Below, piece by piece: positions 1,440 to 7,228 of a DNA stretch of 7,228 bases. The notes below the pieces were generated by a model. It did not search any database. It was not told the DNA's origin and saw nothing but the letters and a program-made list of their open reading frames with translations. The stretch spans positions 1 to 7,228 of the forward strand of contig CAMLLI010000201.1 of NCBI GenBank assembly GCA_946480685.1, read 5' to 3'. The position numbers were made by a program, and so were the translations under genes. The stretch's first letter is position 1. Each line of letters begins with the position of its first letter. This stretch comes from an uncultured Flammeovirgaceae bacterium (GTDB lineage: Bacteria > Bacteroidota > Bacteroidia > Cytophagales > Cyclobacteriaceae).

Positions 1440-1528
1440 CCTTCATCAAAAAATAATAAGCATTTCACTATATCGTATACATTGCTGGCGGGTTTTTACT
1501 AATTTAGCATCAACCTGTGTGTATGCTT

Positions 1529-2734
1529 ATGAAAAAGACCCTTATCCGTTCGGCTATTATTTTTGTTTTTATCCTGATCTCATCTTTTGCTTTTGCTCAA
1601 CAGAACCATTATGTAGTTGTTGGTGTGTTCGCTGTAGAAAGTAATGCGCAAAAGTTTACAGGCTATGTACGAAGCCAGCGATTCAATGCCGGCTATGGAC
1701 TGTACAAAAAACAAAAACTGTATTATGTATATGTGATGAAGACCGCTGATCGCAATGCCGCCCAGGTGGAAATGCGAGGTCTTCATAAAGAAACAGAGTT
1801 CAAAGATTCGTGGGTGTTCTCCGGTATATTGGAAGGTGGCGAAGATCTGCCGCTTGAGACTGAACCTCCAGTTGTTGAAGAGACAACTCCGGTTGTTGAA
1901 GAACCCCCTGTAACACCCCCGCTACCAACACCCGATACAACAGCCACTGCGAATACTCCAACCGTGGCAACAGCAGAGCCAACCGATAGTGTAGGCGAAG
2001 AAGTACCGGCCGCACCACCGACTGTTATAAAAGGTAAATTATTCAAGTTTACGATTCAGACAGATGATGGTAAACCTGTGAAAGGTGAAATTCACAATGT
2101 TGATTTCAGAAGAGGGCGTGATCTCGGTATCTACAAAACCAATCAGTATATAGATATAACGCGTCCGTCCACGCGTAACAATCCGTTGTCGCTGGTGTGT
2201 GGTATTTTCGGATACAAGGAAATTGTAAAGATGCTTGATTACGATAACCCGGCATTTATGGAAAGCAAAGCGTTTCAGGATGGAAATGGTGCATGGGTAA
2301 TTCCGTATCAGCTGGAACGCATGAAGAAAGGAGATGTATCGGTGATGTATCACGTGTCATTCTATAAAGATGCCGTGGTGATGTTGCCGCCATCAAAATC
2401 GGAAATGGATGAGCTGGTAAATATGATGACCGACAACCCGGAGTATAAGATCACCATACACGGTCATTGCAACGGCAGCAACTCGCGCAAGATCATTGCA
2501 CTTGGTCCTTCTAAAAATTACTTCTCAACGCAGGGATCTTCAGAAATTACCGGCAACGCGAAAGAGCTCTCGAAGTTGCGCGCACAAGCCGTTCAGAATT
2601 ACCTCATCGATCATGGTATCGATAAATCCCGTACGCAGATATATGCCTGGGGTTCACAGAATATGCTCGCACCGGAAACCGGTCCGAGTGCCAAGCTGAA
2701 CGATCGCATCGAGATCGAGATCACGGCAGACTAA
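1529..2734 (+). CDS. Secreted SPOR-like / OmpA-like envelope protein
   Basis: I chose the ATG at 1529 (401 residues) because it gives a compact signal peptide (MKKTLIRSAIIFVFILISSF, then AFA with cleavage before QQ). In-frame GTG at 1517 and ATG at 1523 would only add MCML-type residues. After the signal peptide come: a SPOR-like alpha/beta region (about 27-100, starting HYVVVGVFAVESNAQKF); a Pro/Thr/Glu-rich linker (about 107-166) with a repeated PVVEE; a beta-rich segment resembling carboxypeptidase regulatory or PEGA-type domains (about 170-235); and a C-terminal OmpA-like domain (about 272-398). The OmpA domain has IHGHCNG (310-316), LSKLRAQAVQNYL (348-359), GIDKSR and NDRIEIEI (391-398). 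OmpA-like domains bind diaminopimelate in peptidoglycan, and SPOR domains also bind peptidoglycan glycans, so a periplasmic cell-wall anchoring role is likely. The usual TDxxG aspartate is Asn here (HCNG), with about 20 extra residues before the LSxxRA helix. The domain calls are from motifs; the SPOR assignment is the weaker one. Confidence 0.88.
   Translation: MKKTLIRSAIIFVFILISSFAFAQQNHYVVVGVFAVESNAQKFTGYVRSQRFNAGYGLYKKQKLYYVYVMKTADRNAAQVEMRGLHKETEFKDSWVFSGILEGGEDLPLETEPPVVEETTPVVEEPPVTPPLPTPDTTATANTPTVATAEPTDSVGEEVPAAPPTVIKGKLFKFTIQTDDGKPVKGEIHNVDFRRGRDLGIYKTNQYIDITRPSTRNNPLSLVCGIFGYKEIVKMLDYDNPAFMESKAFQDGNGAWVIPYQLERMKKGDVSVMYHVSFYKDAVVMLPPSKSEMDELVNMMTDNPEYKITIHGHCNGSNSRKIIALGPSKNYFSTQGSSEITGNAKELSKLRAQAVQNYLIDHGIDKSRTQIYAWGSQNMLAPETGPSAKLNDRIEIEITAD
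1868..1909 (+). repeat. Diverged 21-bp tandem duplication in the Pro-rich linker
   Basis: CCAGTTGTTGAAGA (1868-1881) is repeated as CCGGTTGTTGAAGA (1889-1902), a period of 21 bases with one mismatch over 14. The rest of the unit has diverged. It encodes the repeated P-V-V-E-E motif in the flexible linker between the SPOR-like and later domains, and probably reflects slippage-driven linker growth. Confidence 0.5.
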
Positions 2735-4976: not shown

Positions 4977-6878
4977 ATGGTAGATTTTATCCGAAAATAC
5001 CCGGCAACGCTTAGCCTCATCGTTGTAAACATGGCCGTGTTTCTATGGATGTACCTGCAAACGGGCACACTCGATGAACCCACGTGGCTGCTTCATTCCC
5101 TACAACACGGTGCCTTGTTCAATCCCTATACTTTAAAAGACGAATGGTATCGTATACTTACCTCCATGTTTATGCACGGACACTTGCTGCACCTGGCCGT
5201 AAACATGAGTGCATTGCTGTTTACCGGCAGCGAGCTGGAGGAAGTAGTAGGCACCGCTAAATTTCTATGGGTATATTTTATAACCGGTATAGCGGCAGCA
5301 TTCAGCAGTTTATACTGGAATTTGTTCACGGTTGGTGTGGGTGCATCCGGAGCGTTGTTCGGTTTATTTGGCTTCTCGATTGTAGTGCATATATACTATA
5401 GCCGGCAACAAAAACTACCCATCATGCCGGTGCTTGTCAGCTTCATCGTATTCCTCGTTGTCAATACTATTTTCTCGCAGGCATTGAATGGTGACCATGC
5501 AGCTCACTTTGGTGGTCTCCTTACGGGAATTGTGTTGGCTTTTTTTACAATCATCATTTCAAAGTCATTTCACAAGGTTGCCGTGGAATATATAGCGGCA
5601 GCGCTCTTGCTACTGGTGTTTTTTGCCATGCCGCGTTACCAGGTTCATTATTTCGATTTCTACCAGCAGGTACTTGCAGCAGAAGATTCCACCAACAGTA
5701 TATTTGATAAGAAGAATCTTTCTGACGAAGCTTTTGCCAACGCGTTTAAGGAAAACACAATGCTGTGGGATTCCGCACTTGCCAGTCTTAATGGTCAATC
5801 CTATATACCCGAAGCGTTACAAAGCGATACATTCAAGTTGAGACGATATCTGAACCTGCGCAGACTGGAAGGTATATTTCGCGTGTCGATGATCGAACGT
5901 GAATCCTATGTATACCTCGACAGCATTGAACTGATGCAGGATTCGCTGCAGCAGTATATTTCACTTGATTACCCGTTGTCGATGGCACATGTGCGAGTAA
6001 AGAAAGAAGAGCCGGAGCCTGATAAAGCGCCACCCATGGAGATGATCAAAGTATGGTACGACCACAATTGGGAAGAGATACCGGGGCCGCCTGCCAGTTA
6101 TTATCGCATCGGCGCACGCGATTCACTCGGTCGCTGGCAGGGTGCAGTGCGTGATTTCTATATAAGCGGTGCTATACAAATGAAAGGCACCTATAAAGAC
6201 GACAAGCGCGATGGCGTGTTTATATATTACTCCGATCATAAAACCTATACATCGGCAGGCCGCTATAGAAATAATCGCAGCATCGGTAAATGGGAAACGT
6301 ATCACAACAATGGTCGCCTGGCCAGCGAAGTATACTATACCGATCGTTATTTCCTGAAAAGCCTGTGGGACTCTGCCGGCCATCAATGGGTAAAGGATGG
6401 CGCAGGGCGTGAGATACAGCGATACGCCAACGGTGTGGTAGCCGCAGAAGGTGAATATAGAGACGGGTATAAAGAAGGCTACTGGTATGGTCGTCATGAA
6501 AATGGAGACATGTATTATGAAGAGAATTATCACCAGGGAAGACTCGTTCACGGAAGATCGCGAAGCCTGAAAGGGGAGAGTGTAGTATATGATGCGAGCA
6601 GCGAATACCCGTTACCCGAAGGCGGATATAAAAAACTGAATGCATATCTGCGCGAAGAAGCGGGCAAGATCAACAGCTCCGTGAAAGGAACTGTTCGATT
6701 GTCCTTTCGCGTTACCACCGATAAAGTACTTGCTGATATAGAAGTAGAAAGCAGTGTATCGCCCGAGCTTGACGAGAAAGCCAAAGAAATTTTACGTAAC
6801 GGACCGGCCTGGATTCCGGCAAGAGAACACGGCCAGAAGGCTGTAGAGGGATATAGCGCAGTGTCTATTGATTTTTAA
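4977..6878 (+). CDS. Rhomboid intramembrane serine protease fused to MORN-like repeats and a TonB C-terminal domain
   Basis: This 633-residue protein has three parts. Residues 1-195 are a rhomboid protease: the first membrane helix at about 11-28; EWYRILTSMFMHGHLLHLAVNM (56-77) with the WR motif, His-67, His-72 and Asn-76 (the oxyanion-hole position); the GASG loop with catalytic Ser-124; and DHAAHFGG (173-180) with catalytic His-177. A seventh helix follows at about 202-218. With a cytoplasmic N-terminus, seven helices place the rest in the periplasm. After a helical linker (about 225-345) come MORN-like/YwqK-type repeats (about 383-530, e.g. KGTYKDDKRDGVFIYY and AEGEYRDGYKEGYWYG). The C-terminus (about 541-633) is a TonB_C domain: EGGYKKLNAYL, KGTVRLSFRVTTDKVLADIEV, SPELDEKAKEIL, AWIPAREHG, ending SIDF. 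All catalytic residues are present, so it is predicted active. No exbB/exbD lie nearby. It starts 79 bases after arfB, with no Shine-Dalgarno. Its substrate is unknown. Confidence 0.92.
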   Translation: MVDFIRKYPATLSLIVVNMAVFLWMYLQTGTLDEPTWLLHSLQHGALFNPYTLKDEWYRILTSMFMHGHLLHLAVNMSALLFTGSELEEVVGTAKFLWVYFITGIAAAFSSLYWNLFTVGVGASGALFGLFGFSIVVHIYYSRQQKLPIMPVLVSFIVFLVVNTIFSQALNGDHAAHFGGLLTGIVLAFFTIIISKSFHKVAVEYIAAALLLLVFFAMPRYQVHYFDFYQQVLAAEDSTNSIFDKKNLSDEAFANAFKENTMLWDSALASLNGQSYIPEALQSDTFKLRRYLNLRRLEGIFRVSMIERESYVYLDSIELMQDSLQQYISLDYPLSMAHVRVKKEEPEPDKAPPMEMIKVWYDHNWEEIPGPPASYYRIGARDSLGRWQGAVRDFYISGAIQMKGTYKDDKRDGVFIYYSDHKTYTSAGRYRNNRSIGKWETYHNNGRLASEVYYTDRYFLKSLWDSAGHQWVKDGAGREIQRYANGVVAAEGEYRDGYKEGYWYGRHENGDMYYEENYHQGRLVHGRSRSLKGESVVYDASSEYPLPEGGYKKLNAYLREEAGKINSSVKGTVRLSFRVTTDKVLADIEVESSVSPELDEKAKEILRNGPAWIPAREHGQKAVEGYSAVSIDF

Positions 6879-6913: not shown

Positions 6914-6921
6914 TATATTTG
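6914..6921 (+). promoter_or_regulatory. Bacteroidota-type -7 promoter element TATATTTG
   Basis: TATATTTG is an exact match to TAnnTTTG, the -7 consensus of the Bacteroidota primary sigma factor. It is followed by CACCC and lies 25 bases before the ATG at 6947. No clear -33 TTTG is found 19-21 bases upstream. It sits in the 68-base gap after the rhomboid fusion and probably drives the last gene as its own unit. Confidence 0.5.
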
Positions 6922-6946: not shown

Positions 6947-7228
6947 ATGAGACTAGGACAATTAGCCCGGAAACTGGCAATAATACCTGCCGAAATCGTT
7001 GACTTCCTTGCCACGAACAATATCCGGATCGATGAAAGCACCAATACACGGCTCGAACACGAGCAGCTTATGCTGGTGATAAATCATTTTGCTCCTGCGC
7101 GTGCAGAAGAGTTTAATACGCCTGCTGCCGATGAGACGCAAGATATACCGGAGGAAACAAACTCACCACGAGTTGAGGTCGTAGTGCCGGAAACAATTAT
7201 ACCGGAGCCAGTTATAACCGTACAGGAT
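6947..7228 (+). CDS. Protein with N-terminal IF2_N-like helical domain and acidic Pro-rich region (3' partial)
   Basis: An open frame runs from the ATG to the window edge without a stop (94 codons). Residues 1-52 (MRLGQLARKLAIIPAEIVDF, then LATNNIRIDESTNTRLEHEQ and LMLVINHFAP) resemble the small helical N-terminal domain of translation initiation factor IF-2 (IF2_N): xLARKLxxxxxEIVDFL, a short basic/acidic turn, then a 'T-x-LxxEQ' helix. The rest (about 53-94) is rich in Pro, Glu, Val and Thr (IPEETNSP, VVVPETIIPEP) and looks disordered. True IF-2 is far longer and carries a GTPase domain, which cannot be seen here. I recall similar IF2_N-headed proteins of unknown role in Bacteroidota, and this is more likely than infB itself. 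The promoter-like TATATTTG 25 bases upstream supports this start. Function and full length are unknown. Confidence 0.75.
   Translation, partial: MRLGQLARKLAIIPAEIVDFLATNNIRIDESTNTRLEHEQLMLVINHFAPARAEEFNTPAADETQDIPEETNSPRVEVVVPETIIPEPVITVQD

Follow-up and report, generated by a model that had tools for sequence, protein, structure and literature searches.

Architecture of the fusion protein

The window, i.e., the whole 7,228-nucleotide stretch analysed here (contig CAMLLI010000201.1 of an uncultured Flammeovirgaceae bacterium), encodes a 633-residue protein in which a rhomboid protease is joined to a helical bundle, MORN/YwqK-like repeats and a C-terminal TonB_C domain. An earlier interpretation made from the letters alone (the sequence-only reading) had described one 633-codon frame carrying a rhomboid catalytic set, a seventh membrane helix, MORN repeats and TonB_C, and this description is confirmed by profile searches, a predicted structure model and 233 full-length protein records. 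The features of the gene are as follows (TM, transmembrane helix).

4977..6878 including the stop codon, + strand: gene for the 633-residue rhomboid, helical bundle, MORN and TonB_C protein (open reading frame, profile search, model)
5001..5558, + strand: rhomboid core TM1–TM6, residues 9–194, with Pfam Rhomboid at 55–191 (Pfam, model, fold match)
5175..5204, + strand: HGHLLHLAVN with His-67, His-72 and Asn-76 (each kept in 233/233 full-length records)
5346..5348, + strand: catalytic Ser-124 in GASG (kept in 233/233)
5505..5507, + strand: catalytic His-177 in DHAAHFGG (kept in 233/233)
5580..5636, + strand: TM7, about residues 202–220, the segment of lowest conservation, with a nearly invariant Pro-219 at its end (model, identity, alignment)
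5637..5957, + strand: predicted periplasmic four-helix bundle, residues 221–327, common to other rhomboids of the order (model, homology)
6039..6590, + strand: MORN/YwqK-like beta sheet, residues 355–538, the part of highest conservation across the family (profiles, model, fold match)
6618..6875, + strand: TonB_C domain, residues 548–633, YP segment absent and last strand shortened (Pfam, fold match, alignments)

Rhomboid catalysis involves a Ser-His dyad together with oxyanion Asn/His residues. By the sequence features tested, the window protein is a rhomboid: it scores 102.1 bits against the Pfam profile Rhomboid (PF01694; cut-off, 22.6) and possesses both the dyad and the oxyanion Asn/His. 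Two narrower assignments were rejected, namely rhombosortase (TIGR03902; 45.1 bits against an NCBIfam equivalog cut-off of 84) and the GlpG equivalog (TIGR04239 and NF008155; scores of 40.6 of 250 and 38.4 of 335, respectively). The Pfam check proposed in the sequence-only reading held for Rhomboid and TonB_C but fell short for MORN_2 (PF07661), which scores 23.3 bits in the window protein against a cut-off of 29.6; the relative L048 reaches 31.1 bits, and 65/66 family members match this profile at E up to 0.01. No Pfam match to TPR was found in the window protein. A structure search with the predicted fold returned GlpG, iRhom1, MORN proteins and the TonB C-terminal domain (TonB-CTD). The C-terminal TonB_C match, whose absence would have refuted the sequence-only reading, was found both by Pfam and by the fold match to TonB-CTD. 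TM1 is preceded by merely 8 residues, and the structure model and most loop charges agree in placing the C-terminal half outside, on the periplasmic side, supporting the proposal that a TonB-like tip is presented in the periplasm.

Conservation and distribution of the fusion

Protein records comprised the window plus two best-120 lists (drawn from 445 and 1195 matches), a set of 241 that favours full-length forms and that includes the window and one identical copy; 233 of the 241 are full-length (590–720 residues). Throughout these 233, His-67, His-72, Asn-76, Ser-124, His-177, Trp-612 and Gly-619 are invariant, and the catalytic residues are also kept in the window and at 29/29 complete genome loci. 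The invariance of the catalytic set supports the reading of an active protease.

Genome surveys scored just a few candidates per genome. In the GTDB family of genome G001, 31 of the 245 genomes sampled match the fusion at E up to 1e-40; 29 of the matches are complete, one lies at a contig edge (L063) and one is partial (G455). At the same threshold, 7/291 genomes match in the order sample of G001, and all 7 recur in the family sample. In the phylum sample of 395 genomes, 17 match at E up to 1e-35: the centre genome G001 matches from end to end, 13 genomes match just in the rhomboid half and 3 just in the MORN+TonB_C half. Some match is present in 187 of 194 genomes in the order sample of G002, with the whole fusion in G002 only and the halves on separate proteins in many of the other genomes. 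Source names among the matches listed include Chryseolinea soli, Chryseolinea lacunae, an Ohtaekwangia metagenome-assembled genome (MAG) and Cyclobacteriaceae and Cytophagales MAGs; record titles and protein names suggest that the sampled groups are Bacteroidota. Record L002 is titled Chitinophaga sp., yet its genome, G002, turns up in the G001 family sample, and the title is probably wrong.

Judged from these sequences, the fusion forms a stable family, and within the samples taken it is restricted to one GTDB family. Full-length copies across many independent assemblies rule out a sequencing error or an assembly fusion of two genes, and a plasmid-borne trait was likewise rejected, as 15 of 72,556 plasmid records match and 0 cover more than 80% of the query.

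Mean identity to the window across 30 loci is 53% for MORN, 43% for the rhomboid, 40% for TonB_C, 36% for the linker and 28% for TM7. Ratios of non-synonymous to synonymous substitution rates (dN/dS) come from three close pairs (window, L001 and L002) with high dS, one TM7 pair being saturated; they amount to 0.018–0.051 for TonB_C, 0.042–0.053 for MORN, 0.033–0.136 for the linker, 0.093–0.119 for the rhomboid and 0.113–0.186 for TM7. TonB_C has the lowest value of all segments in two of the three pairs (0.018 and 0.019), whereas in the third it stands at 0.051 and MORN is lower at 0.042. Such low values indicate that the tip is under strong constraint and is neither a relic nor decaying. The arm is under selection, probably for a role that differs from the standard Ton contact.

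The fusion protein lacks two hallmarks of TonB energy transducers

A Tyr-Pro (YP) segment at the start of TonB_C is counted as a hallmark of TonB transducers, and in E. coli TonB it comes after residue 160. When one canonical TonB from these bacteria (L097) is aligned with TonB chains of solved structure, its YP falls on theirs. The fused TonB_C has a short segment here (Tyr-557 to Gly-571), and the window protein has no YP; the YP letters occur in this segment in 1/31 genome-based fusion rows (L054, seen by eye and split by the aligner) and in 8/233 protein records, and a Pro lies near the YP column in 11/31 genome-based fusion rows. YP is present in 22/22 non-fusion TonB_C rows, which were drawn from profile and homology matches, a choice that favours YP. 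Among the non-fusion TonB_C places considered below, 13/20 are aligned; of the unaligned ones inspected by eye, L105, L106 and L112 have YP, L116 has FP, and L111 and L115 are without it. Outside the fusion, YP is common, not universal.

The protein ends at the last TonB_C strand or one residue beyond it in 210/233 full-length records. No conserved motor-motif His was found in the membrane helices, with a TM1 His in 4/30 rows and a TM7 His in 2/31. Excerpts of PMC12204202 describe TonB and TolA as binding their partners by beta-strand addition and reaching the motor via a helix with an SHLS motif; in excerpts of PMC11658791, the TonB box of FhuA pairs with TonB strand beta3, and that of BtuB nears TonB residue 160. 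The fusion protein has the TonB_C fold but fails two testable hallmarks of a TonB transducer.

TonB_C as a mobile part in these bacteria

Counting the two fusions, TonB_C occurs at 22 places in genomes G426 and G002 together. The carriers include single-helix TonB-like proteins, an M56 peptidase (L098), the L107 protein and secreted MORN+TonB_C proteins; by these sequences, these bacteria use TonB_C as a mobile part. The fusion is not the sole pairing of TonB_C with a membrane protease: the M56 peptidase of L098 ends in TonB_C, and a look-alike, L106, lies in a second genome. These M56 (BlaR1-type) peptidases, each ending in a full TonB_C, are located at L098:1492-3000 (−; Pfam) and L106:226-2010 (+; by eye). 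Like the fusion, they are membrane peptidases with a C-terminal TonB_C, yet their metallopeptidase core is unrelated to the rhomboid, and the TonB_C of L098 is a full match with YP. A further layout, at L107:1486-2916 (−; Pfam) and L110:1489-2931 (−; by eye), combines a short N-terminal part, one helix, a carboxypeptidase-D-like domain and TonB_C; the N-terminal part appears anti-sigma-like by eye in both and has no Pfam match in L107.

Origin of the two halves

The C-terminal half (about residues 352–626) is homologous as one block, with up to 35% identity, to MORN+TonB_C proteins that have no rhomboid. We examined 17 such proteins (238–488 residues) from the same order and phylum and scanned 7 with Pfam, finding TonB_C in 7/7 and MORN_2 in 6/7 (4 above the cut-off). 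By a rough rule, the N-terminus is hydrophobic in 17/17 and no membrane segment is predicted beyond it; this N-terminal stretch is followed by small-x-small-Q in 15/17, by FFAQ in L093 and by the lipobox-like LAAC in L012. By that same rule they appear to be secreted proteins with a signal-peptide-like N-terminus and no membrane anchor. Because these relatives are signal-peptide-like and have no other membrane segment, the arm is not obviously derived from a force transducer. They keep YP in 14/14 aligned cases, whereas the fusion mostly does not.

The N-terminal half (about residues 7–326) is homologous to what we call tail rhomboids, which consist of a rhomboid, TM7 and a helical tail, followed in L028 by TPRs. 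Unlike the fusion, they have no MORN or TonB_C, and in the four that were scanned an extra N-terminal part precedes the Rhomboid domain, which begins between residues 199 and 371. L028:25-2733 (−; Pfam) and L034 (by eye) encode rhomboids of about 900 residues with an N-terminal part, a seventh helix, a helical tail and many TPRs, a layout that resembles YqgP on a larger scale.

In a tree of the C-terminal half, the 31 fusion rows stand on one side of a branch and the 17 secreted rows on the other (Shimodaira-Hasegawa-like approximate likelihood ratio test, SH-aLRT, 98). In a tree of the N-terminal half, the 17 tail rhomboids group together with a support of 100 but sit among the fusions, which are not one clade. 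The simplest reading of these trees is that the fusion arose by a single joining of two pre-existing proteins; because the tail rhomboids nest among the fusions, a later loss of the C-terminal half in the tail rhomboids is the alternative.

Gene neighbourhood and other features of the window

Neighbourhoods were compared at 23 loci, window included, with crude gene calls (longest open frames) that, in the window, took an antisense frame in place of arfB. Besides the fusion itself, no gene family recurs in its vicinity at more than 6/23 loci, and no conserved operon partner was found among them. Two candidates were rejected: an extracytoplasmic function (ECF) sigma factor (Pfam for L080) occurs at 4/23 loci in varying places, about chance level by an estimate made with no control, and an M48-like peptidase (by eye) lies directly upstream in 5/23 loci, all from one tree subgroup, an adjacency that is explained by shared descent.

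Window positions 1517-2734 encode one protein with a SPOR domain and an OmpA domain, relatives of which are found around the fusion in 6/23 loci including the window and directly upstream of it in L065. Neither Pfam nor NCBIfam matches the window genes at 447-1358 and 6947-7228, whose relatives hold positions around the fusion in L001 and L002. For the latter gene, the full-length relative L002:9971-10801 is likewise without a Pfam match. In G304, the fusion has directly upstream of it a MORN-only gene, L083:8190-8942 (+), whose 250-residue product has a signal-peptide-like start and scores 80 bits for MORN_2. The promoter motif TANNTTTG has 8 matches in the window against 5.1 expected, and we claim no promoter from it. 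At 6914-6921, 25 bases ahead of the next gene, lies TATATTTG, which we take to resemble the Bacteroidota -7 box; its window-wide count is not above chance.

Possible function of the arm

In the reading that we favour, with a probability of roughly 45%, the fusion is an active rhomboid resembling YqgP, and its periplasmic arm steers the protease by docking on a partner in the envelope or by sensing one, without acting as a force transducer. The kinship of the C-terminal half with secreted proteins and of the N-terminal half with tail rhomboids supports a docking or sensing arm. In this scheme, the seven-helix rhomboid, its catalytic set being complete, would cut, and the MORN sheet would set the distance of the TonB_C tip from the membrane. 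About 16 strands at a spacing of about 0.48 nm would give an estimated reach of roughly 7 nm, probably short of the outer membrane but enough for the cell wall or the periplasmic parts of outer-membrane proteins. There the tip would dock, probably by beta-strand addition, on an outer-membrane or cell-wall-bound protein or on the exposed strand of a misassembled one, and docking might bring the rhomboid its substrates or release them, as part of membrane-protein quality control or of the shedding of a regulator. The fusion would transmit no ExbB/ExbD force. Recruitment of substrates or partners is the likeliest use of the arm.

Several observations weigh against this scheme. The stretch predicted to lie outside directly after TM7 carries a net positive charge. 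With the last strand shortened and YP mostly lost, even beta-strand docking may be gone. TonB_C goes undetected at E up to 0.01 in 5/66 members, and the fused TonB_C ranks near the bottom of the TonB_C matches in two genomes (33.7 and 24.1 bits). The unconserved neighbourhood leaves the idea of a partner without genomic support.

That same lack of a conserved gene context would be expected of a general housekeeping enzyme, and the arm might then be a passive tether or spacer that holds a quality-control rhomboid at the cell wall or in one envelope zone, with no part in substrate recognition or regulation. MORN is indeed better conserved across the family than the rhomboid (53% versus 43%), and excerpts of PMC7232013 report that two Shigella rhomboids, GlpG and Rhom7, the latter with seven predicted helices, do membrane quality control by clearing orphan membrane proteins. 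A mere spacer, however, would need neither so constrained a tip (TonB_C dN/dS of 0.018–0.051) nor a Trp-612 and Gly-619 that are invariant in 233/233, and we consider a passive tether possible but doubtful. Self-cleavage in or beside TM7, shedding a MORN-TonB_C arm that would then act like the secreted MORN+TonB_C proteins, strikes us as improbable. In its favour, the arm is related, outside the family, to free secreted proteins, and TM7, with 28% mean identity, is conserved least of all segments and ends in the nearly invariant Pro, which in the window's subgroup is followed by Arg, but neither sequence nor model points to a cut, rhomboids seldom cut their own helices, and a poorly conserved helix speaks against a defined cleavage site.

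Far less credible still is the sequence-only proposal of a protease core in place of the usual TonB anchor, when it is read as a force transducer driven by ExbB/ExbD and acting on TonB-dependent transporters. It is not supported, because the C-terminal half is homologous as a unit to secreted, anchor-less proteins, YP is mostly gone, and neither TM1 (4/30) nor TM7 (2/31) has a conserved His, in contrast to the SHLS of TonB and TolA (excerpts of PMC12204202); in addition, ordinary single-helix TonB-like proteins are present in two fusion-bearing genomes. A non-cleaving, iRhom-like scaffold in which the arm does the work is very unlikely, given that the catalytic Ser and His are kept in 233/233 full-length members, unlike in a pseudoprotease.

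Returning to the docking or sensing arm, a bolder version of it, rather unlikely and drawn by analogy, would turn TonB_C from a force-transmitting tip into a protease sensor: an exposed beta strand, such as a transporter's TonB box or an unfolded outer-membrane protein, would be read through strand addition and would thereby gate a rhomboid that cuts an inner-membrane regulator, and in Bacteroidota TonB_C would be a general envelope-sensing module, also borne by M56 peptidases and secreted MORN proteins. PDZ-equipped DegS and RseP of Proteobacteria provide the analogy for such a TonB_C-gated rhomboid. In this family, a complete rhomboid is combined with a domain whose known role elsewhere is to bind outer-membrane transporters, and the arm offers a concrete handle with which to fish for the partner and substrate of that rhomboid. 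If TonB_C docks here without a motor, many anchor-less TonB_C proteins may be misread as energy transducers, and counts of Ton systems derived from TonB_C matches would be inflated.

Comparison with known systems

Among the titles and abstract openings listed from the open-licence PMC literature, we found no description of a rhomboid-TonB_C or rhomboid-MORN fusion, a result that does not extend to the text of PMC1664576, where the words rhomboid, MORN and TonB all occur; the word TonB occurs 0 times in a 2025 rhomboid review (PMC12615303), and the abstract of PMC7231995 describes bacterial rhomboid functions as largely elusive. Within the literature searched, the fusion is an undescribed rhomboid with a new outer domain. 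Its likeness to the ExbB/ExbD-driven TonB lies in the TonB_C fold at the C-terminal end. TonB has a single anchor helix with SHLS, whereas the fusion protein has seven helices, lacks a conserved His of the motor motif and in most members has no YP.

GlpG has no periplasmic arm, whereas the fusion carries one; iRhom pseudoproteases have lost the catalytic residues, whereas the fusion keeps Ser and His in 233/233. YqgP has seven helices. One sequence source names a family member (P0125) rhomboid protease GluP. According to excerpts of PMC7231995, the cytosolic N-terminal domain of B. subtilis YqgP/GluP mediates metal-induced cleavage, and its extracellular TPR C-terminal domain is thought to bind ligands. 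The fusion has no such metal-sensing N-terminal domain, and where YqgP has three TPRs outside, the fusion is predicted to have a four-helix bundle, MORN and TonB_C (same excerpts for YqgP). The likeness is one of general layout: in YqgP as in the modelled fusion, a catalytic rhomboid is followed, after its last helix, by a structured outer domain.
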